Origin: a virus | Length of the DNA: 35,622 nt | IMG/VR virus record: IMGVR_UViG_3300049893_001646 | Coordinates: 1 to 35,622 of that record | Direction: 5' to 3' (one strand) | Shown here: one piece after another, positions 7,876 to 35,014 of the stretch | Layout: each line of letters begins with the position of its first letter | Numbering within the stretch: the first letter of the stretch is position 1 | Translations under genes and position numbers: made by a program | The notes under the pieces: model-generated | What the model was told of the DNA's origin: nothing | Database searches by the model: none | The model's input: only the letters and a program-made list of their open reading frames with translations

Positions 7876-10185
7876 TCACCTCAGATTGATCGTCCGGCCC
7901 TGAATCGCGCCGTAAAACACCACCTGATCGGTGATGACCGACTCCGTGTTCGTCGCCCGATTCCCGCCAAAAATCAGTCGATTCGTCTGCCCCGGCACGA
8001 GTGTCGGAAATTTCCCGTCGATCGCGCCCGTCGGCGTCTTGAACCGCGGCGAGTTCGCGGCGTCAAACTCGACCCGGTATACCTCGCCGTCCTCGCGGAA
8101 CTGCGCCCACGACAACGACGCCAGCGGCGCCGTCGACGCCGGCCGCCACTCCACGTAATCGAGCTTGTCCCCAAACGGGATAAACTGCACCCGGTCCCAC
8201 TGCGCCGGGTATGTCGAATTGCCCGAGTCGTACAGCGTCACCGTACACTCCGCCAGCATACCCTCCGGCGTCGCCGCCAACGGGATCGGAAACACCCCGA
8301 AGTCGAGTTCTTGCCAATAGCCATTCAGCGCCGAGTCGATCAGTTGCGCCGTGCTGAATCGCGCGTACGTCGCGTCGCCCTGCGCCACCACCACCTGAAA
8401 CCAGGTCGGGTACGTGTGGTTGATTCGGCACCGCGCTTTGATCCGATAGAACCCGTAGAAGTCCGGGCCATAGATGTAGTCGTAGGCCGTCGCGACCACC
8501 GACTCCTTGCTGCGCGTGTACGGCGTCACGCTGTAGCCCGTATCGTCAAACGTCGTCACCGCGCCGACCTGGCCGACCTTCGACCGTTGGTCAACCCGAC
8601 AGATGATATAGCCCACCGCGCCCGATGCCGCCGCCCACGTGATCCGGTTGAAATTCGTGCTAGACAGCGTCGCGTTGCCGGTCGTCGTTGTGCCACCCGA
8701 CGACACCAGCGACTCCGAGCCGTCCGAGAACACGGCCACGACCCAGTAGTTGTAGGTCGTCGAGCCGGGCGTCCCTTGTGGCGTCACCGTGACGCTGGTC
8801 GGCGCGTTCGGCGGCGTCCGCGCGCTGTCCAACCGGTTGCCGTTCGAGCACGCCGCGTCCACCGCCGCGCTCGCGCCCGTCAACAACGTGTTGAACGACT
8901 CCGCCTCACGCTGGTGCGTGAAGCTAGTCGACGGCTTCACCCGGTTCGCCGCCCACAACTTTGCCAGCCCCGTCCCACCCGACACAACGCCCAGCGTCGC
9001 CCGCACGTTCGGCGCCACGTTCCCCGGCACACCGCCCACATCCACGTAACTCGGATACGTCGCGTCGCCGCGAAACCAAGTGTCGAGGTCGCCAACCGTC
9101 GTCAGTGAATCCGCCTCTTTGCCGCCGCTGTAAAGGTCCGCCGCGCTCACGAGATAGATGCCGTCAAAGTTGAGCCCGTGCCGAATGTCGTCGATCGCGC
9201 CGGTGAACTGGTTGGAGTTGTCCCACTCCCGCCCCGCCCGAATCTGACCCATCGTGTACAGCGCCGTCACCGACCCGACGTTGCCGGTCACCGACTTGAC
9301 GCCATCGAGGTAGAGCGCCAACCCGTGCTGATAGTCCGTCCCGTACTGGCCCCAGGTCAGGCAAATGTGGTGCAACGAGTCCGCCGCCCACGTCCCGCTA
9401 TTGAGCGTGATGTAGGTCGACCCGGCGGTCGGCACACCTCCGACGTTGAAATTAACCGAGAACGTCAACCGACTCGAATCAAGTTGGAGTTTGAAATTGC
9501 CCGACTGCTCGTGCAAAATCGTTTTCGTCGCCGCGTTGTAGGCGTGCGTGTTCCACAACCAAAACGAGATGACGCCTGAGTTGACCGTCAGTTCGGTCGT
9601 GCCCGGCATCACCACCCAGTTCGTCCCGTTGAGCACCAACCCCGACCCGTAGCCGAGGCCCGACGCCGAGGACGATCCCTGCCGCTCGACGATCGGTCGC
9701 CACGGTCCATGCAGGTACGGATCAGCTTCCAACCGCAACGTCGACTCGAAAACCGCGTCCGCCACCAACCCGAACGAAAACCAGTCTTGGGGAAACTCCC
9801 AATACCCGTCCCGCACCGGCGACCAGTAGCGCTTGGTCGAGTTCTGCAACTGCCAGACCAGGTACACCGGCCGGTTCCCCAGCATCGTTTCGCCCAGTTC
9901 CGACCGCCGCCGCGACTGCTCGATCAGCGCGTCAAACCGCGCCTGCGCCACCTGCAACGCGTCCGGCGACGCGCCCGCCACCATCGGTCGAATCGTCATC
10001 GGTCGATTGCCGTGCGAGTGCGCGATCACGCGGTGTACCGTCCGGATCAACGACACCTTGCGCTCCGTTTTGACGATCGGTGGGTACCCCGGATCAAACC
10101 CCGCGTCGTGGACCCCATAACTGGTATCGGTCCCGCCCAGTTCGATCGTCGTCACGCCGTCCGTCAGCCGCAGCAGATGCGCCAC
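7876..10185 (-). CDS. Large distal tail protein with LamG-like sugar-binding domain
   Basis: 769 residues from GTG 10185, overlapping the tape-measure stop by one base (TAGTG). The N-terminal ~180 residues look like a distal-tail (Dit-like) adaptor. About 185-345 form a concanavalin/LamG-like jelly roll: a segment with GTNWVVMPGTTELTV, then ALYLDGVKSVTG and GAIDDIRH, the usual end of such folds. A fibronectin-III-like region follows (about 460-555: PPNAPTSVTVTP start, NYWVVAVFSDG, a closing TTFDDTGYS). The C-terminus looks like a second beta sandwich. This is a modular host-contact protein at the tail tip, probably binding a surface polysaccharide. Confidence 0.75.
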   Translation of the reverse strand: MAHLLRLTDGVTTIELGGTDTSYGVHDAGFDPGYPPIVKTERKVSLIRTVHRVIAHSHGNRPMTIRPMVAGASPDALQVAQARFDALIEQSRRRSELGETMLGNRPVYLVWQLQNSTKRYWSPVRDGYWEFPQDWFSFGLVADAVFESTLRLEADPYLHGPWRPIVERQGSSSASGLGYGSGLVLNGTNWVVMPGTTELTVNSGVISFWLWNTHAYNAATKTILHEQSGNFKLQLDSSRLTFSVNFNVGGVPTAGSTYITLNSGTWAADSLHHICLTWGQYGTDYQHGLALYLDGVKSVTGNVGSVTALYTMGQIRAGREWDNSNQFTGAIDDIRHGLNFDGIYLVSAADLYSGGKEADSLTTVGDLDTWFRGDATYPSYVDVGGVPGNVAPNVRATLGVVSGGTGLAKLWAANRVKPSTSFTHQREAESFNTLLTGASAAVDAACSNGNRLDSARTPPNAPTSVTVTPQGTPGSTTYNYWVVAVFSDGSESLVSSGGTTTTGNATLSSTNFNRITWAAASGAVGYIICRVDQRSKVGQVGAVTTFDDTGYSVTPYTRSKESVVATAYDYIYGPDFYGFYRIKARCRINHTYPTWFQVVVAQGDATYARFSTAQLIDSALNGYWQELDFGVFPIPLAATPEGMLAECTVTLYDSGNSTYPAQWDRVQFIPFGDKLDYVEWRPASTAPLASLSWAQFREDGEVYRVEFDAANSPRFKTPTGAIDGKFPTLVPGQTNRLIFGGNRATNTESVITDQVVFYGAIQGRTINLR

Positions 10186-17708: not shown

Positions 17709-18191
17709 TCAGAACGCCATCCTTACCCGGAACAACGGCTCCGACACCAGGCCGGTATCGACGTCCAATGAGCCGTCGGTCAACGGGTTGGTCATCTCGT
17801 CGGCGTCCGTCCCCGATGTCGCCATCGCCGCCTTGATCTGGTTGTCGTCGTAGAGCCAGCGCATAAACGTGCCCCAGCGATCCTGCCCCGCCGTCCGCTG
17901 TCCCGGATCGCGCATCGCGTTTTCGAGCGATAACGCCACCTTCCCCGCAACGCCAACCGCCGACCAGTGCTTGAGGTTGTTTCCGGTCAGCGTTCCCGCC
18001 GTGACCGTCGTCGGCACGGCGTAGCCGAGCGCGTACAGCCGCGCATCGATCAGCGCCGCCACCTCGCCAATCCACTCCCGACACTGCGCCAAGGTCGGTT
18101 TGGTGGTATCGCTCAATGTCTGCGGCACCCAGGCGACGTTTGCCAGCGCGTCGCCCTCCTCGCAGTAGCCGTACGTGTACGGGTAGGCCAT
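17709..18191 (-). CDS. Head-tail connector/adaptor protein
   Basis: 160 residues, ATG 18191. Largely alpha-helical: a helix with QCREWIGEVAALIDARLYALGY typical of the gp6/gp15-type adaptor proteins that dock on the portal, then a loop with VTAGTLTGNNLKHW and a helix KVALSLENAMRD. Connectors of HK97 type have this size and order. It precedes the gp10-like gene and follows the fibre cassette rather than the capsid gene, which is unusual. Confidence 0.7.
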   Translation of the reverse strand: MAYPYTYGYCEEGDALANVAWVPQTLSDTTKPTLAQCREWIGEVAALIDARLYALGYAVPTTVTAGTLTGNNLKHWSAVGVAGKVALSLENAMRDPGQRTAGQDRWGTFMRWLYDDNQIKAAMATSGTDADEMTNPLTDGSLDVDTGLVSEPLFRVRMAF

Positions 18192-18208: not shown

Positions 18209-18547
18209 CTAACCCGCCGAAATCACGAAGGCACCCCGTTCGACCGTGGTCACCACGCCGTTCGCCTCGGTCATCACCAGCTCCCAGATGTAATCCAGCC
18301 GGCCCGCCGCCAGTCCCGACGTGTTAGCTGGGAGCACGGTCGTCACCGCGACCCCGGTCGCCGGCGCCGAAACGACGATGCCTGACCCGATCGTTTTGGT
18401 GATGACGGCGTCGACGTCGGCCTGATAGGCGTCCGTTTTGACCATAAACGATAGCGTCGCGCCAGTCAGATCGACCGCGACGGCGCTGCGTGTGATCGTG
18501 TGCGTAAAGGTTCGGGTATCGCCACGGGTGATGCTCAGGTCCGTCAT
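18209..18547 (-). CDS. BppU-like N-terminal beta domain protein
   Basis: 112 residues, ATG 18547 with GGGAGG overlapping the preceding stop. The sequence opens DLSITRGDTRTFTHTI, continues with VDLTGATLSFMVKTD and closes with GRLDYIWELVMTEANG and an FVIS strand; this is the pattern of the N-terminal baseplate-upper-protein (BppU) domain, a small beta sandwich that anchors receptor-binding proteins. Here the domain stands alone as a whole protein, next to the repeat protein gene. It may serve as the attachment base for the neighbouring fibres. Confidence 0.65.
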   Translation of the reverse strand: MTDLSITRGDTRTFTHTITRSAVAVDLTGATLSFMVKTDAYQADVDAVITKTIGSGIVVSAPATGVAVTTVLPANTSGLAAGRLDYIWELVMTEANGVVTTVERGAFVISAG

Positions 18548-18550
18548 CGG

Positions 18551-19768
18551 CTAAACCTCCCCCACCGTCGTGGCTGTCGCGAGTGGCGCCATCGTGGTCA
18601 CCGATGCGCCAACTGCGTTGACCGTGGTGGCGCTGCTAGCCAGTGCGCTTGTCGTCGTCGCCGATGCGGCAAGGGTCGCCGTCGCGGTCGTCGCGCTGGC
18701 CAACGGTGACATCACCGTTGAGCCAACCGCCCGACCCGGCCAGGATCGAACCCTGATCCATTCCACTGCGTGCGAGATCGACGACGAGATCGCGCGACGC
18801 CAGTCGACCAGCCGCGCCGCGCTCGACGTGTGCGCGACCACGTTCGTGACGCCGCGCAACCAGTCGACGCTGCGAGTTGCAGCCGACGAATGGACGACAG
18901 TCGAACTCGCCGACCGTTGCCACCCGGTGAACCGCGCAGCAGCAGACGAGTGCACAACGCTTGACGTGATTGATCTTGTCTGTGCGCCGCCGCCGCTCGT
19001 TGATCGGTCCGCGCCGCTAGTGTGGCTAATTGACGCCGCGATCGCGCGGACCCACGCCACGCTGCGGCTGGCGGCGGTGGCAACGCTGATTGCGGCAACA
19101 CTAACCGACCGCAACCACCCGACGGACCGCGTGGCGCTCGACGTGTGCGCGACGCTGGCGCTGATCGACCGAAGCCAGTCGACCACCCGCGCCGCTGCTG
19201 ACGTGTGCGCAATCGAACTTGTCACCGACCGTAACCGCGCGAGCAGTCGCGCGGCGGTCGACGTGTGGCTGATCGTGCTGGTCACGTCGCGCAGTCGGCC
19301 CTGCTGACGGTCGGCGACGCTGGTGTGGTTGATCGCGGCGACGTTCGCCGGTCGGACGTACCCTACCAACCGACCCGCGTTCGTCGTGTGGTTCGTTGTC
19401 GCGCTCGTTGACCGCTGCCAGTCAACCAGCCGAACGACAACTTCACCATGGGCAATGTTCGAGGTAATCGGACGTTGCCAGTCCACAATACGAACAGCCA
19501 GTGAGGTGTGGGCGACGCTGCTCGAAATGTCCCGGACTTTGCCCACCAGAGCCGCCGCGCCGCTCACGTGCGCGATGTTGGCGAGCGTTGTCGATCTCGT
19601 CCGGAACGGCGACACCATCGGCCAACGCGGGAATGTGTTCGTGGTCGTTTCACCAGCGACATTACGCCACTTGTCCTTATCGCCGACGAACGAGTATGGG
19701 TACCAGCCCGTCGCGCCGGCCCACTCACCCGCTCCAGCGATAACACCGCCCAGTCCTGGCATCGCCAT
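18551..19768 (-). CDS. Repeat protein with 20-residue units (unrecognised, probable fibre)
   Basis: 405 residues; ATG 19768 follows the preceding TAA directly. After a non-repetitive head (1-57) come about 14 tandem units of 20 residues (58-338), roughly R-x-[IV]-[ST]-[SA]-[ST]-[IV]-x-H-[ST]-x-x-A-x-R-x-V-x-W-L. Histidines fall at about 67, 87, 107, 127, 148, 168, 188, 208, 249, 273, 293, 313 and 333; one unit (near 228) lacks it and one is 24 residues long. The C-terminus (about 352-401) changes to five 10-residue units ending in TT (SPLASATT, ATLAASATT, SALASSATT, NAVGASVTT, APLATATT). No known family is recognised. Regular short repeats suggest a beta-solenoid or trimeric fibre. A long antisense frame exists but has no neighbours on its strand. 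Confidence 0.75.
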   Translation of the reverse strand: MAMPGLGGVIAGAGEWAGATGWYPYSFVGDKDKWRNVAGETTTNTFPRWPMVSPFRTRSTTLANIAHVSGAAALVGKVRDISSSVAHTSLAVRIVDWQRPITSNIAHGEVVVRLVDWQRSTSATTNHTTNAGRLVGYVRPANVAAINHTSVADRQQGRLRDVTSTISHTSTAARLLARLRSVTSSIAHTSAAARVVDWLRSISASVAHTSSATRSVGWLRSVSVAAISVATAASRSVAWVRAIAASISHTSGADRSTSGGGAQTRSITSSVVHSSAAARFTGWQRSASSTVVHSSAATRSVDWLRGVTNVVAHTSSAARLVDWRRAISSSISHAVEWIRVRSWPGRAVGSTVMSPLASATTATATLAASATTTSALASSATTVNAVGASVTTMAPLATATTVGEV

Positions 19769-20911
19769 TTAGCCGTACACTCCGAACCACTGGTACGTCT
19801 GCAAGCCCGTCGATGTGGTCGACGTGCGTGTCATAAACGTGTAACAGCCGAGCTTGCCACCGGCAGTCTCGCCCAACGTCAACGACCCGGCCATCATTGA
19901 CACCGGCGACCGCTCGATTACCGACGTCGTCGCGAACGTTGAGTAGAACATCAGCGGCTTGAACAAGATCAGTCCCAGTGTCCCCGTGCCAGTCATCGAC
20001 GCGCTAAATGTCACCGTTTCAACGCTTTTCACGCCAAGATCGCCCGACTGCAACGGAAACGACCACTCATTCGCCGTCGGCTGCAAGCGGAAGGCAATCG
20101 CCGATGTGGTCATTGCTACCGCGCCCGACGATCGCGACCCCGTCCCCGCTTGATTGGTGTAAGTCACGGTGATGTTCGATGCCGTGCCGCCGAGCGCCGC
20201 AACCACATCGAAGCTGCCATACACGCCCGCGCCGTCGGTGTACCGCGTCAACGCGGTTGAGTTCACGGTTTGCGGCGATGTCGTCGTCGTACTGATGTTG
20301 CCCGCGCCGACCAACAAGTCGACCAACCACACCACGTTCGTACCCGTGGTGTGGTTCCACGCCATATTCAGGAACACGCCAACGTCGGACCCGCTTGGAT
20401 CGGCGAACGGAATGGCGCCCGTTGATGAACTGTCCGGCGCTGAACCGCCAGTAATCGCGGTATACGACCCAGCGGCAGGCACGCCACCGGAGCGGAAGAA
20501 GAAGCTCCACGCGTTCGCGACGGTCGTCTGGCTGGATTTCTGGACAATGTAGTCCATCGCCTTGCCGCCGGTGCGGTTGGCGAGGACGTTGTCCCAGCCG
20601 GTGATCGCGTTGTACACCCGGCGCTTGTTGATCCACTCGACGGCGCGGTCGTGGTGCCACCGCGGCGACTTGCTGTGAATCCATCGCTCGGCGTAACGGT
20701 TTTCTCGCAGCAACGCGTCGAGTTGACGCGTGGTGATATTTTTGAGCACGATGCCGCGACCGGGCACCAGGTCGACCAGGTGACCCAGTTCGTTGTGGCC
20801 CGCGCCGACGCTCGGCGCGCCACGCGGCATCAACATTGCCTGACGCCGAAACTCGGTGACGAATGAATTGTCGGGGACGTCACTGACGTAGATCGCTTTG
20901 CCCGCTACCAT
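19769..20911 (-). CDS. Virion structural protein (minor tail or fibre)
   Basis: 380 residues, ATG or equivalent at 20911. The first ~130 residues are mixed charged and helical (LDALLRENRYAERWIHSKS), followed by about 250 residues of Thr/Ser/Gly-rich beta-type sequence (SYTAITGGSAPDS, TVNSTALTRYTDGAG, ITVTYTNQAGTG) ending in aromatic residues (YQWFGVYG). The two-part layout, attachment region plus beta domain, is common in minor virion proteins; no named family is recognised. It precedes the repeat protein with no gap. Confidence 0.65.
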   Translation of the reverse strand: MVAGKAIYVSDVPDNSFVTEFRRQAMLMPRGAPSVGAGHNELGHLVDLVPGRGIVLKNITTRQLDALLRENRYAERWIHSKSPRWHHDRAVEWINKRRVYNAITGWDNVLANRTGGKAMDYIVQKSSQTTVANAWSFFFRSGGVPAAGSYTAITGGSAPDSSSTGAIPFADPSGSDVGVFLNMAWNHTTGTNVVWLVDLLVGAGNISTTTTSPQTVNSTALTRYTDGAGVYGSFDVVAALGGTASNITVTYTNQAGTGSRSSGAVAMTTSAIAFRLQPTANEWSFPLQSGDLGVKSVETVTFSASMTGTGTLGLILFKPLMFYSTFATTSVIERSPVSMMAGSLTLGETAGGKLGCYTFMTRTSTTSTGLQTYQWFGVYG

Positions 20912-22676: not shown

Positions 22677-24671
22677 TTACGCGTTTGCAATGGTCGTCAC
22701 AGTGCCCGACGACCCGCGCCACTTGAGCGCGCCGCTCTCGGCGTACAAAATGCCGCCACCCGACGGGTTACTACTCGGTGCGGTGTTGCGATCGGCGATG
22801 AAGATCACCTGCACACCACCGCCATAGCTGCCAGCCTCATTCGCCGTGCTGGACGTGTTCAAATTCAGCGCGGCGTTGCCGTTCTCCGAGAACTCAGCGA
22901 TTCGGTTCCCACCCGTGCGGTTGACCACAAATGACGGCGTCGTGCTGTTACTCGCGCCAATCCAACAGGCCGCCGTACCCCCGCCGTTGTTGTAGCGCAA
23001 GCCAATCACAAACACTTCGGAATTCGCCGCGAATGCCGATCGGTTCCCCTGGACTTCAAAGTTGGTGTAGCCACCATACATCTGGCTGTTGACGCCAACT
23101 AGCGCGCCAGTGCCGAAATACGACCCGGCGCCGTTGATGGTCATCGTCCCTGACACCACGGCGTTCCCCGACACGTCGAGCGCTTGCGCCGGGTTCGACA
23201 CACCGCCGAGCTTCAACCCAGTCGAGTTGAGCCGAGCCGCTCCGGACGGCGTGCGCGGATTGCTGCCGGCGGTGGCGACGTAGAGATCGACCGTACCGTA
23301 ACCGACGAGAAAATACGCGCCGGCGTTGCCGGTGTCGTCCAAGTTCCAGTTCGACCCGTCGTAACCCAGGTTGTGCGTGTAGTACGTTCCGGTCGACAGG
23401 TAGGCGGCCATTCTGCCGATGGCCGTGTTGGCGCCGCCGTGTTTGACCGCAACCGCCGCGCGCGACTTGGTGACATACACGTCGCCGCCGATATCGACCG
23501 CAAAATTGACCGTCGTCCCGTCCGAGGCCCGAACCTCAATCTGGTTGGCAGTTTGGCTAGCGACGGCAATAGCCACGATCGTCGGCTTATTCGTCGCCGT
23601 GGCGCGCACGTCCAGCGCCCCGCTAGGATTCGTGCTATTGCCGATAATCAGCCCATGAAAACCTACCAATGAATACAACGACGCATACCGGACGCCTGCG
23701 CCTGAAAACACATCAAAGTTGATTGCTTCACCAGTTCCGTTTTTGACTAGAACTCGATACGTTCCAGTCGCGGAGAAGGTGTTATTCGGATTAACCCGCG
23801 TGATGAGACCAGCATCAGTCGTTGAAATCGCCAACCCGCCGATGTCACCAATCAGACGATCCGACGCATCTTTCCAACTTGCCCAAGCCGTTGAGGCCGA
23901 ATCACCGAGGAATGTCAACCCCCCGACGTCAAGCTTGACCTGTTCTGTGGCATCGTTCCACGTCGCGCTGTTTCGCTTCCACAATCCGAGCGCCGGACCG
24001 CTCCCCGTCCCAAATAGGTTCGCCGACCGCCGCAGCTCCAGCCATTTGGTGTTGGTCGTGCCGGTGTCACACACCACGTCGCCGACGTACCACTGCTGCG
24101 CCCCGGCCCCATTCAGGTTCCGCGTCACCGTGTACTGGTACGCCCCGGCCACCAGCGTCGACGCCGACGCCGCCGAGGTCACCGCCAAAAACTCGATCGT
24201 CGAGTAGTCGCGGAAGAGCGCCACCCGATCGCCCGACGCCAACGTGTTGTCGGCCACGTGGATCGTCGTATCCGCCGGCGCCAGGTCGGCCACCAACTTG
24301 GTTTTGACCGCCACCAACAGTCGGTCAAGGACGCCGGCCACCACCGACGTCCCTCCCTCGGTGTTCCTCGGCTTTGGCGTCGTCGCGGCGATCGTGTACG
24401 TCACCTCCAACCACGTCACCACGCCGCCGATGTCCACCGACCGAAAGTACTTCCCCTCCGCCACCGACGCGATCGACCAATTCCCATTCGCGTCCGTCAA
24501 CGTCGGCCCGTACGCCGGCGATCCCGCCGGTTTCGCGCCCGTGATCGTCGGAAACACCGGCTTGCCATTGGCGTCCGTCGGAAACTGCGACGCGCGCCAC
24601 AACGAGACCAGGGCGCCCACCACTACGCCCGTCTTGTTGACCACCGTCCCAGTCGCCGTCATCAACGCCAT
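22677..24671 (-). CDS. Tail-fibre-like adhesion protein
   Basis: 664 residues, ATG 24671 with GGAG upstream. The first ~95 residues resemble a carboxypeptidase-regulatory/prealbumin-like beta domain (GTVVNKTGVVVGALVSLW; TLTDANGNWSIASVAEGKY). A strand-rich neck follows. From about 285 there are repeat-type units with the pattern TNKPTIVAIAVASQTANQIEV plus DIGGDVYV, and LDVSGNAVVSGTMTINGAG, common in phage fibre shafts. The C-terminus (NPSGGGILYAESGALKWRGSS) is a frequent fibre end motif. A receptor-binding or capsid-surface fibre. It is unusual that it lies just after the capsid genes rather than at the tail end of the operon. Confidence 0.8.
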   Translation of the reverse strand: MALMTATGTVVNKTGVVVGALVSLWRASQFPTDANGKPVFPTITGAKPAGSPAYGPTLTDANGNWSIASVAEGKYFRSVDIGGVVTWLEVTYTIAATTPKPRNTEGGTSVVAGVLDRLLVAVKTKLVADLAPADTTIHVADNTLASGDRVALFRDYSTIEFLAVTSAASASTLVAGAYQYTVTRNLNGAGAQQWYVGDVVCDTGTTNTKWLELRRSANLFGTGSGPALGLWKRNSATWNDATEQVKLDVGGLTFLGDSASTAWASWKDASDRLIGDIGGLAISTTDAGLITRVNPNNTFSATGTYRVLVKNGTGEAINFDVFSGAGVRYASLYSLVGFHGLIIGNSTNPSGALDVRATATNKPTIVAIAVASQTANQIEVRASDGTTVNFAVDIGGDVYVTKSRAAVAVKHGGANTAIGRMAAYLSTGTYYTHNLGYDGSNWNLDDTGNAGAYFLVGYGTVDLYVATAGSNPRTPSGAARLNSTGLKLGGVSNPAQALDVSGNAVVSGTMTINGAGSYFGTGALVGVNSQMYGGYTNFEVQGNRSAFAANSEVFVIGLRYNNGGGTAACWIGASNSTTPSFVVNRTGGNRIAEFSENGNAALNLNTSSTANEAGSYGGGVQVIFIADRNTAPSSNPSGGGILYAESGALKWRGSSGTVTTIANA

Positions 24672-25052: not shown

Positions 25053-25985
25053 TTACGCGATCAAGTCTTTGTAGAGATACGCGCACGCCGCGCTGATCTC
25101 TTTGGTGTCGTAGGTCATCGATGCCTCGACCCACTCGCCCGGCGGGTCCTTTTCCGGCCACCGACGTATCACCATGCCGCGCTGTCCCGTTTCCGCCTCC
25201 GGCGCCATAAACGTCGCGCCGAACGTGCGAACGCCGTCGTACGGGAACGGCGAGCGCGCGAAGATCAATGCGTTGTCGCCCCACACCTCGCCCAACGTCG
25301 CCGTCTGTCCGGGATTGGCGCTATTCTTGATCGCGGCCGACTCGATGATGCTGAGTCCTTTGACAATGCCCGGCAATCCCGCTTGGGTCAGCGCCGCCGT
25401 CGATGTGTATTTGAGCGCGTCTTTGATCGACGCGTGTTCACCGACCGTCAACGCGCTCGTATAGGAGATCAGCATGTGCGTCGCGACCATGTGGCCGTTG
25501 GTCTTAACCGTGGCCTGCGCGGTCGCAATCGCCGTCAATGGCGCCGACGACGCGTGCGACCATTGCGTCGTGCCCGAGAGCGTGCTGTTCTGCGTCACAA
25601 TCGACGTGTTCGTCGCCCGAGCCGCCGCGAAGTCCTCGCGTTCGAGTTTGGCGAGACGGGATGTCAGCACGGCTTTTTCGAGCTCGCGCCGAATCGCCTC
25701 CTCGCTGTTGCGCACGCGCCCAGCCGGGATAAACTCCTTGAAGCCCCGCCGGATCGCGTTGAAGGTGCCGTAGCTATCCGAGCGACGCACTTCTCGCGCC
25801 GGCGCGAACTCGCCCACGCGGTTTTCCTCAAGGTTGAATTCCTCGCCGCCCAAAAACGTCGCGTAGTTGTCCGTCAGGTGGTCAACGTTGATGGTCGGGT
25901 AGACATCGTCGGCGACAAAAATCTGCTCCGGCTCACCGATGACGACGTTCGTGAGGTATTGGTCAAAGTGCCCAAAACTTGCCAT
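25053..25985 (-). CDS. Major capsid protein (Mu gp34-like / HK97 fold)
   Basis: 310 residues, ATG 25985 with AGGAGGATC upstream. Begins ASFGHFDQYLTNVVIGE, includes FLGGEEFNLEENRVGEF-type and EFIPAGRVRNSEEAIRRELEKAVLTSRLAKLER (a long spine-helix-like stretch), and ends with strands and KEISAACAYLYKDLIA. The size, the order after protease and decoration protein, and the spine helix fit a Mu-type HK97-fold capsid protein. No large cleavable delta domain is visible, consistent with scaffold function being part of the protease gene product. Confidence 0.85.
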   Translation of the reverse strand: MASFGHFDQYLTNVVIGEPEQIFVADDVYPTINVDHLTDNYATFLGGEEFNLEENRVGEFAPAREVRRSDSYGTFNAIRRGFKEFIPAGRVRNSEEAIRRELEKAVLTSRLAKLEREDFAAARATNTSIVTQNSTLSGTTQWSHASSAPLTAIATAQATVKTNGHMVATHMLISYTSALTVGEHASIKDALKYTSTAALTQAGLPGIVKGLSIIESAAIKNSANPGQTATLGEVWGDNALIFARSPFPYDGVRTFGATFMAPEAETGQRGMVIRRWPEKDPPGEWVEASMTYDTKEISAACAYLYKDLIA

Positions 25986-30561: not shown

Positions 30562-31998
30562 CTACCAATGATCGCGCGCCGGCACGCTATCAGCAAGCGC
30601 CCACTCGCCGCTACCTCCGCCGTGCGCCGGATACAGCGCCAGAATCAGCGCCTCGGCCCGGTCCGGCGACCGCCCCTCACGCTTCCGGTAATCGTCCTTG
30701 CCCTCAATCTCAACGGCGCGATCGGCGCGATGCTGGTACCGCATCGTCGTTAACTGCGAGATCGTCTCCTCATCAGTCAACCCAGCCACGCCGCCAGCGC
30801 CAAACTGCTCCCGCGCCGACCAATACAACTCGGCCTTGAGGTTTGCCCATCGGGTCGGGTCCGCCGACGTCGCCCCCGCGATCACCTGCTGGACCGGGAA
30901 ACCAGCGTCGGTCAAGTGCAGCGCGAAATAGTAGCCCAGACCCACCGCGTCGACGTTCACCAGCCAGAGTCGGTCACGCCACTTGGCCAGGAAGTCGGCC
31001 ACCTCGGCGCGCGGATCCGGCCCACTCGTCGCCAGCAGATCGAGTACCTGCCCGTTGCGGACCACGTAGACGACCGTCTCATCGTCACCCGGCCCCGCCA
31101 CATCAACGCCGGCCTTGAGCGGCCCGCCATCGTCCACCGCCGACGCCGAGGCCGCCGCGTCGATCTGGCTCAGCGGAATCAGCGCGTCCGCGCTCTGCGT
31201 CGGAAACTGCCCCCGCACGCGCGACAGGTACACCGACGCCTCTGCCCCCCACTTCCGGTACATCTCCCGCACCCACCGCCGCGTCGTCAGGTACGGCCGC
31301 TCCACCCGCCCCAACTCGTCATCGTCCATCGCGAGCACGTCGTCGATCGTCAGCCCGACCAGGTTCGGCGTGTCGAAGGCATCAATGGCGATCCGCGTCC
31401 AGCCCGCCGCGCCGCGCCCGGTGAAGCAACGGTAGAACTCGCCCGTCGCAATCGTCGGGTTGCCAATCGCCAACTGCCGCACGTCGCCACCCGCCCGAAT
31501 ACCCTCGATCGCTTCCCAGATCGACGCCGCCACCCCTGCCGCCTCATCGAGAATCACCAACACCCGCTTCCCGTGCCACCCCTGGAACCGCACGCTGTCG
31601 TTCGTCGAGAAGCCGAGCGCAAACGCCTCATTCGACAACTTCCACTCGGTTTGCAGCAACTCGCCGCCGAGCCGGAACCGCGCCCGGCTATGCAGTCGCG
31701 CCACCTCGCCCCACAACAACTTGGTCACCTGCAACTGCGTCGGCGCCGTCGTTACGACCAACCCACCCGTAGCCGCAAACCAGAGCACCGCCGCCGCCGC
31801 GACCGCCGTCTTACCGCTGGAGTGACACGACCGTACCGCCACCCGCGCGTGCGGTCGACCCAACGCCCGCAAGATACGCTGCTGCGTCGACCACGTGTCA
31901 AACCCCAGCACATCGCGCGTCCACGCCACCGGATCGTCCCGGTAGCGATCAACGATCGTCCGCGCCTCACCCGCCGTCAGCGTCGCCGTCGCCGCCAT
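30562..31998 (-). CDS. Terminase large subunit
   Basis: 478 residues. The packaging ATPase has Walker A SCHSSGKT at 57-64, Walker B VLVILDEA at about 146-153, and a coupling motif GNP at about 179-181. The RNase-H-like nuclease domain shows D299 (GVDVAGPGDDE), D350 (LVNVDAVGLG) and an acidic C-terminal helix SPDRAEALILA. It translocates DNA through the portal and cuts it. The start ATG 31998 overlaps the small subunit gene by 32 bases, with only a weak ribosome site, so it is probably coupled. Confidence 0.95.
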   Translation of the reverse strand: MAATATLTAGEARTIVDRYRDDPVAWTRDVLGFDTWSTQQRILRALGRPHARVAVRSCHSSGKTAVAAAAVLWFAATGGLVVTTAPTQLQVTKLLWGEVARLHSRARFRLGGELLQTEWKLSNEAFALGFSTNDSVRFQGWHGKRVLVILDEAAGVAASIWEAIEGIRAGGDVRQLAIGNPTIATGEFYRCFTGRGAAGWTRIAIDAFDTPNLVGLTIDDVLAMDDDELGRVERPYLTTRRWVREMYRKWGAEASVYLSRVRGQFPTQSADALIPLSQIDAAASASAVDDGGPLKAGVDVAGPGDDETVVYVVRNGQVLDLLATSGPDPRAEVADFLAKWRDRLWLVNVDAVGLGYYFALHLTDAGFPVQQVIAGATSADPTRWANLKAELYWSAREQFGAGGVAGLTDEETISQLTTMRYQHRADRAVEIEGKDDYRKREGRSPDRAEALILALYPAHGGGSGEWALADSVPARDHW

Positions 31999-34375: not shown

Positions 34376-35014
34376 ATGATTGATCTCACCACGATCACAC
34401 TGCGCCACGGTAAACACCCCAGCCGCGACGACGGCACGTGCATCATGGAGGCCGCCGCCTGGCTCGCGGGTGAGCCCCACTCAGACCACCCCGTTTGCGT
34501 GTGTCCCGTGATTGCGACCTTCGCCCGAAGGGTCAACGACTGTATGCCTGATGACGCTACCCGTACCCGGCTACTGGCGCCGTTGCTGCCCCGTCTCATT
34601 GGCACGGCGGGCGACCCAGCGGCCAGCCAGCGCCGCGCCTACATCGCCGCCGATCTGGCCGTACGGGTGTTCGCGCCGGACGCGCTGGACGCGGCGGGGT
34701 TGACCGATCACGGCGCCAGGCTGAGGGCGCTGCCGCCGATCGTTGATCAGGCGACCGCCACCAGGGCCACCTACGCCGCCGACGCCGCCGCCGTCGCAGC
34801 CGCCAAGTCCGCCGCCGCCGCCGACGCCACCTACGCCGCCTACGCCGCCTGGGCCGCCGCCAACGCCGCCGCCAATGTCGCCAACGCCGCCGCCGCCGTC
34901 TGGGCCGCCGCCGCCGCCGCCGTCTGGGCCGCCGCCGACCTGGTGGGCTACTGGGAGCGGGTGCCAGACTGGTTTGACCGACTGATCCGTGCGGACACTG
35001 GTAGAGCGCCGTGA
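34376..35014 (+). CDS. Alanine-rich phage protein of the MEA-AGEPHSDHP family
   Basis: 212 residues, ATG 34376 with GGAGG twelve bases upstream. The N-terminal half is conserved in many phages and bacteria: HPSRDDGTCIMEAAAWLAGE, PHSDHPVCVCPV, FARRVNDCMPDD. The second half (about 122-190) is Ala-rich with regular Tyr/Trp (AAYAAWAAANAAANVANAA), a helical repeat seen in other members of this group. Function unknown. The GCC-run in the DNA makes this region prone to length change. Confidence 0.75.
   Translation: MIDLTTITLRHGKHPSRDDGTCIMEAAAWLAGEPHSDHPVCVCPVIATFARRVNDCMPDDATRTRLLAPLLPRLIGTAGDPAASQRRAYIAADLAVRVFAPDALDAAGLTDHGARLRALPPIVDQATATRATYAADAAAVAAAKSAAAADATYAAYAAWAAANAAANVANAAAAVWAAAAAAVWAAADLVGYWERVPDWFDRLIRADTGRAP

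Follow-up and report, generated by a model that had tools for sequence, protein, structure and literature searches.

A phage protein of tandem 20-residue repeats as a candidate fibre shaft beside a collar-type protein

Introduction

The stretch of viral DNA analysed here (the window, 35,622 nt; IMG/VR record IMGVR_UViG_3300049893_001646) encodes a protein that consists largely of tandem 20-residue units, and the question it raises is what such a protein might build in or on the virion. The original prediction, made from the sequence letters, took it for an unrecognised virion protein whose regularly placed histidines and tryptophans might line up as ladders, possibly binding metal or anions, and whose unit number might serve as a length switch. 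The idea of a fibre carried on a collar is already known; a limited literature search found no description of repeat shafts of this kind or of their recurrence beside phrog_1084, the family to which the downstream neighbour belongs. Here, we examine the repeats themselves, their genomic setting and the proteins encoded at the equivalent place in other phages.

Results

Architecture of the repeat protein

The gene occupies exactly the positions first proposed for it and lies on the minus strand; its product can be divided into three parts:

18551..19768, minus strand: repeat protein gene, 405 aa, with the ATG at 19768 and the stop codon ending at 18551
19598..19768, minus strand: N-terminal segment, residues 1-57, without repeats and without a recognised domain
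18755..19597, minus strand: array of about 14 units of 20 residues, residues 58-338
18551..18733, minus strand: C-terminal Ala/Thr/Ser-rich units of about 10 residues, residues 346-405

The 20-residue period is unmistakable, as lag-20 residue identity in residues 58-338 amounts to 34.9% (91/261), compared with 10.4% +/- 1.8% and a maximum of 17.6% over 10,000 shuffles, and the claim of some 14 tandem units is thereby upheld. Their consensus reads R-x-[VI]-x-[SA]-x-[VI]-x-H-[TS]-S-x-A-x-R-x-V-x-W-x, and the register of the array includes slips of 1 or 4 residues. Histidine keeps its register in 13 of the 14 units (residues 67, 87, 107, 127, 148, 168, 188, 208, 249, 273, 293, 313 and 333), the very count given in the original prediction, and is lost in the unit at residues 220-240. 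The Arg residues at unit positions 1 and 15, which had also been pointed out, are invariant in the nine clean units and thus at least as regular as the His; the Trp placed near position 19 fares less well, being present in 8 of 14 units, with Tyr in one more. These two Arg per unit account for the basicity of the protein, which has a pI of 11.9 and a charge of +23 at pH 7 and is almost devoid of Lys. The described shift to 10-residue units at the C-terminus is likewise significant (17/50 lag-10 matches against a shuffled mean of 8.0, p = 0.0008), this repeat being weaker than the 20-residue one. Sequence searches of Pfam and PDB returned no match, in keeping with the description of the protein as unrecognised, and the protein matches phrog_38196, a family of unknown function, weakly (E 1.8e-4).

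Divergence of the units at the DNA level

No tandem array was found at the DNA level within the repeat gene. When the units are compared with one another, they share 47% of residues and 61% of codon positions 1-2, whereas third codon positions are common to them in 37% of cases, against 32% expected by composition. Because the units are alike in protein while their third positions are near random, their likeness is held by protein-level selection rather than by recent duplication. This bears on the proposed length switch: units so diverged in their DNA leave no substrate for slippage, which weakens the idea of a ready switch for the window gene. Unit number does vary among relatives of another lineage, with about 10 units in loci L168 and L145 and about 19 in L229.

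Fold of the 20-residue unit

Within the unit, conservation is much stronger at odd than at even positions (mean entropy 0.78 vs 1.67 bits; permutation p = 0.0007). The conservation spectrum has its maximum at 180 degrees, where it reaches about sevenfold the value of any other harmonic. An alpha helix is expected to give a conservation peak near 100 degrees. The alternation and the 180-degree peak fit a beta strand with one packed face, and the repeat units would accordingly adopt a beta structure, as far as their conservation pattern can tell. Structure prediction gave two models that contradict each other, both of low confidence: AlphaFold2 run on the whole protein without an alignment placed about two strands in each unit (mean pLDDT 44.7), whereas a run on five units, for which the remaining units of the protein served as the alignment, returned helix (pLDDT 57.8, pTM 0.28). 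A Foldseek search with the first (beta) model yielded nothing significant (best E 0.022), and coiled coil is not predicted for the shaft. A further candidate was the quadrilateral helix of pentapeptide-repeat proteins, which has 20 residues per coil; we rejected it, as there is no five-residue sub-period, identity at lags 5, 10 and 15 being at background level (8.6-9.1%).

Genomic setting

The minus strand carries, in order, genes for terminase, portal, protease and major capsid protein, fibre-like orphans, the repeat protein, a 112-residue protein, an adaptor-like protein and tail proteins. The features to which we refer are the following:

30562-31998, minus strand: terminase
25053..25985, minus strand: major capsid protein, phrog_1005, which marks the head side of the module
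22677-24671, minus strand: orphan of 664 residues just after the capsid genes, fibre-like by composition, with no Pfam or PHROG match
19769..20911, minus strand: upstream gene, an orphan of 380 aa that is beta-rich by composition and abuts the repeat gene with zero gap
18209..18547, minus strand: downstream gene, 112 aa, phrog_1084, 3 bases from the repeat gene
17709..18191, minus strand: probable head-tail adaptor, 160 aa, with matches to the genes located next after repeat and collar in L162, L165, L164 and L172
10185-14717, minus strand: tape measure
7876-10185, minus strand: protein of 769 residues whose gene follows that of the tape measure; it contains a LamG/ConA-like domain (Laminin_G_3, E 5e-10) and is probably a separate tail-tip adhesin

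The orphan encoded at 19769..20911 is a possible partner of the repeat protein, as the distal part of a fibre. The place of the repeat gene between the major capsid and adaptor genes, next to a gene for a fibre-collar-type protein, makes it probable that the product is, as originally suggested, a virion protein, and a fibre-like one.

The neighbouring collar-type protein

The product of 18209-18547 was assigned to phrog_1084 with an E value of 1.4e-12. On its own it scores 13.9 bits against Pfam BppU_N, below the 23.1-bit cut-off, and it is the family profile (14 members) that reaches proteins of known structure: an unnamed 'Structural protein' (PDB 26dk_M, E 2e-18), the fibre collar p132 of phage T5 (7qg9_R, E 5e-4) and, as another L-shaped tail fibre assembly protein, 8hqz_Q. 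Individual members match Pfam weakly, three of them LtfC (best 2e-5) and three BppU_N (best 5e-4). The T5 protein forms a dodecameric collar of BppU-N-like fold onto which three lateral fibres are grafted (PMC10038345), and the same fold has been proposed for the neck collar of the lactococcal neck passage structure, whose fibres often end in carbohydrate-binding modules (PMC6669499). Given the profile match to p132 and the use of a related fold by these published collars, the neighbour is probably a fibre-anchoring collar protein.

Repeat proteins beside phrog_1084 in other phages

Relatives were gathered via the terminase and the major capsid protein, and their genes were scanned for an internal period. 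Proteins with repeats of 20-22 residues are encoded at the same gene place in L124 (22), L139 (20), L145 and L168/L170 (20), L175 (22) and L177 (20), and in L162/L172 a 20-residue repeat protein precedes another small beta-like gene. The gene directly upstream of phrog_1084 encodes such a repeat protein in 5 of 11 cases, as against 6 of 1,940 other genes (Fisher 9e-10; the counts rest on a mechanical gene call), and the enrichment persists when the window is excluded and near-duplicates are merged (p = 6e-6). It is not a rule for every locus: in several (L152, L159, L180, L215) the upstream gene does not encode a repeat protein. In L180, the gene after phrog_1084 encodes a short protein with collagen-like GPPGPPGSS sequence, a different type of fibre next to this collar family. 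In the cultured Streptomyces phage Moab, the phrog_1084 gene (gp30) adjoins one for a product of 500 residues (gp31), and the two lie between capsid and adaptor genes.

Several of the relatives' repeat proteins start with a LamG/ConA-like, lectin-like or other beta domain, and several end in units of about 9-11 residues; a Pfam search of the window protein found no N-terminal lectin-like domain. In L229, a contig of a Bacillota MAG, one 745-codon open frame takes in a lectin-like domain, about 19 repeats of 20 residues and a phrog_1084 domain, and L175 also holds repeats and a collar-like domain within one open frame, whereas in L168 and L145, relatives of L229, repeat and collar are in separate genes. 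Such sharing of an open frame suggests that the two parts act together. The collar-type or small beta gene is followed by a head-tail adaptor-like gene in the window, L139, L143, L145, L162 and L168, and both the 112-residue neighbour and the adaptor of the window match their counterparts in related loci. What sets the window protein apart is its regular His and its strong basicity; the counterparts are mostly acidic, with pI values of 4.1-5.7 and L162 (9.8) as the exception.

The window repeat itself is an isolated sequence in the collections that we searched. No close relative was found by tblastn in 50,697 phage records; peptide and DNA patterns in IMG/VR gave five matches, all of which proved on checking to be due to chance; the records behind the TerL relatives gave one weak match in another context; and the loci collected through terminase and capsid protein and the genome loci gave none. 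When the window units were compared by hhalign with those of L172, L206 (= L168), L139 and L177, probabilities were at most 0.1%, not above column-shuffled controls. The resemblance between window SVAHTSSAAR and L172 GVADLTNAAR was also considered, and profile comparison does not support homology. The repeat proteins beside phrog_1084 thus have place, period and architecture in common, and not detectable sequence ancestry. As the repeats are not detectably homologous, the shared architecture could be convergent, and the common 20-22-residue period may reflect structural constraint, convergence or very old descent.

Discussion

Taken with its neighbours, the repeat protein is best explained as part of a lateral fibre of a siphovirus-like phage, located at the neck or on the head: it would form the shaft of this fibre, which would dock on a collar of the LtfC/BppU type. 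To this reading we give a somewhat better than even chance. The 20-residue units would build an extended beta structure, in which the odd positions (R, V/I, V/I, H, S, A, R, V, W) would form the conserved packed or inter-subunit face and the even positions would face the solvent. The C-terminal units of about 10 residues would adjoin, and probably dock on, the ring of the phrog_1084 collar protein, while the fibre would touch the cell surface multivalently and probably reversibly; the regular Arg and His would give it a strongly cationic face, which could hold anionic glycans. We infer the beta fold, the oligomeric state, the C-terminal docking and the glycan binding of this fibre, and similarly infer the position of the collar (neck, head vertex or baseplate) from gene order only. 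A bolder proposal, which we regard as doubtful, is that the protein represents a new shaft fold in which each 20-residue unit is one rung of an Arg/His/Trp ladder binding anionic surface polymers, and that it is one of many sequence-unrelated 20-22-residue shafts swapped onto a common collar.

The main competitors of the neck or head fibre concern where on the particle such a protein would sit. It might be an accessory fibre of the baseplate or tail tip, its collar ringing the tail end and its gene having come to lie among head-neck genes by chance. Both T5 p132 and TP901-1 BppU are indeed tail-end collars (PMC10038345; PMC6669499), and mycobacteriophages have L139-like repeats in minor tail proteins whose genes lie close upstream of lysin genes. 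However, what follows the collar-type or small beta gene in the six loci named above is an adaptor-like gene and not a set of baseplate genes, and the window already has a separate lectin-bearing tail gene after the tape measure, so that we consider a baseplate location unlikely. We think it quite unlikely, too, that the protein decorates the capsid surface or forms a head fibre on capsomers or vertices, with the phrog_1084 protein acting as a capsid adaptor. The gene does follow closely on the capsid genes, the L168 protein has a match in its lectin part to phrog_10356 (annotated 'virion structural protein' in the head and packaging category), and head fibres are known in other phages (7-7-1, PMC12796354), but the known relatives of the collar fold ring the tail or neck and not the faces of the capsid.

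The two remaining readings start from the composition of the protein, and both appear far less plausible than a fibre shaft. Iron is held by needles of the T4 gp37 type, of which HxH motifs are a defining feature. Although the His in register in 13/14 units falls on the conserved face, no HxH motif exists in the 405 residues, and for this reason the comparison with an iron needle fails. Moreover, the repeat proteins that other phages encode at the corresponding place show no such regular His, Arg is equally regular at two unit positions, and three closely spaced Arg/His rings would be repulsive to a cation. We therefore find no backing for the ladder as a metal site, and a metal- or anion-binding His-ladder fibre of the gp37 kind is very unlikely; anion binding as such may still occur. 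The high pI and net charge could instead speak for a DNA-binding or internal protein, for instance one packaged with the genome; the near absence of Lys, the regular beta-type conservation, the fibre-collar neighbour and the mostly acidic character of the repeat proteins at the equivalent position make this hardly credible.

The fibre-shaft reading has partial precedents. In T5, p132 (LtfC) is a small Ig-type collar protein that anchors the lateral tail fibre pb1; unlike the T5 collar, which is at the tail tip, the window pair has its genes between those for capsid and adaptor, and its fibre would consist of 20-residue repeats. For the lactococcal neck passage structure of 936 phages and TP901-1, a BppU-N-fold collar has been proposed at the neck together with fibres (PMC6669499), but a single protein there combines collar, shaft and binding module, usually with a coiled-coil shaft, whereas the window has two separate genes. 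The neck fibres of A-1(L) (gp80-gp82), which have been seen experimentally, also consist of repeated beads; each bead, however, is a protein copy of its own, mounted on a pentadecameric neck ring, and not a repeat within one chain (PMC10966104). The proteins of uncultured phages that combine a LamG domain with repeats (L124, L139, L145, L168, L229) agree with the window protein in gene position, 20-22-residue period, shorter C-terminal units and a collar that is adjacent or in the same frame; they differ from it in being acidic and in having an N-terminal lectin-like domain, where the window protein is strongly basic and lacks one. Repeats on the 20-residue scale also characterize the mycobacteriophage minor tail proteins with SAEAFG repeats (phrog_13352; MaryV gp45, prophiFVLQ01-1 gp73), which the L139 protein matches; their repeat sequence differs from that of the window, and they are encoded close upstream of lysin genes rather than between capsid and adaptor.

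Through these observations, many repeat proteins that lack annotation become linked to a collar family that can be recognised. They also offer a simple way to pick out candidates for neck or head fibres among uncultured phages, namely to inspect the gene upstream of phrog_1084. That the period stays nearly constant at 20-22 residues while the sequences are unrelated hints that a structural constraint is shared, which is testable. Should the shaft turn out to be a beta fibre of a new kind, it would represent a simple, modular type of scaffold that varies in length from one related phage to the next.

Elsewhere in the window, GC-rich tandem DNA repeats with periods of 9-24 lie at 34774-34937, where they code for Ala-rich stretches of the open reading frame at 34376-35014 on the plus strand.
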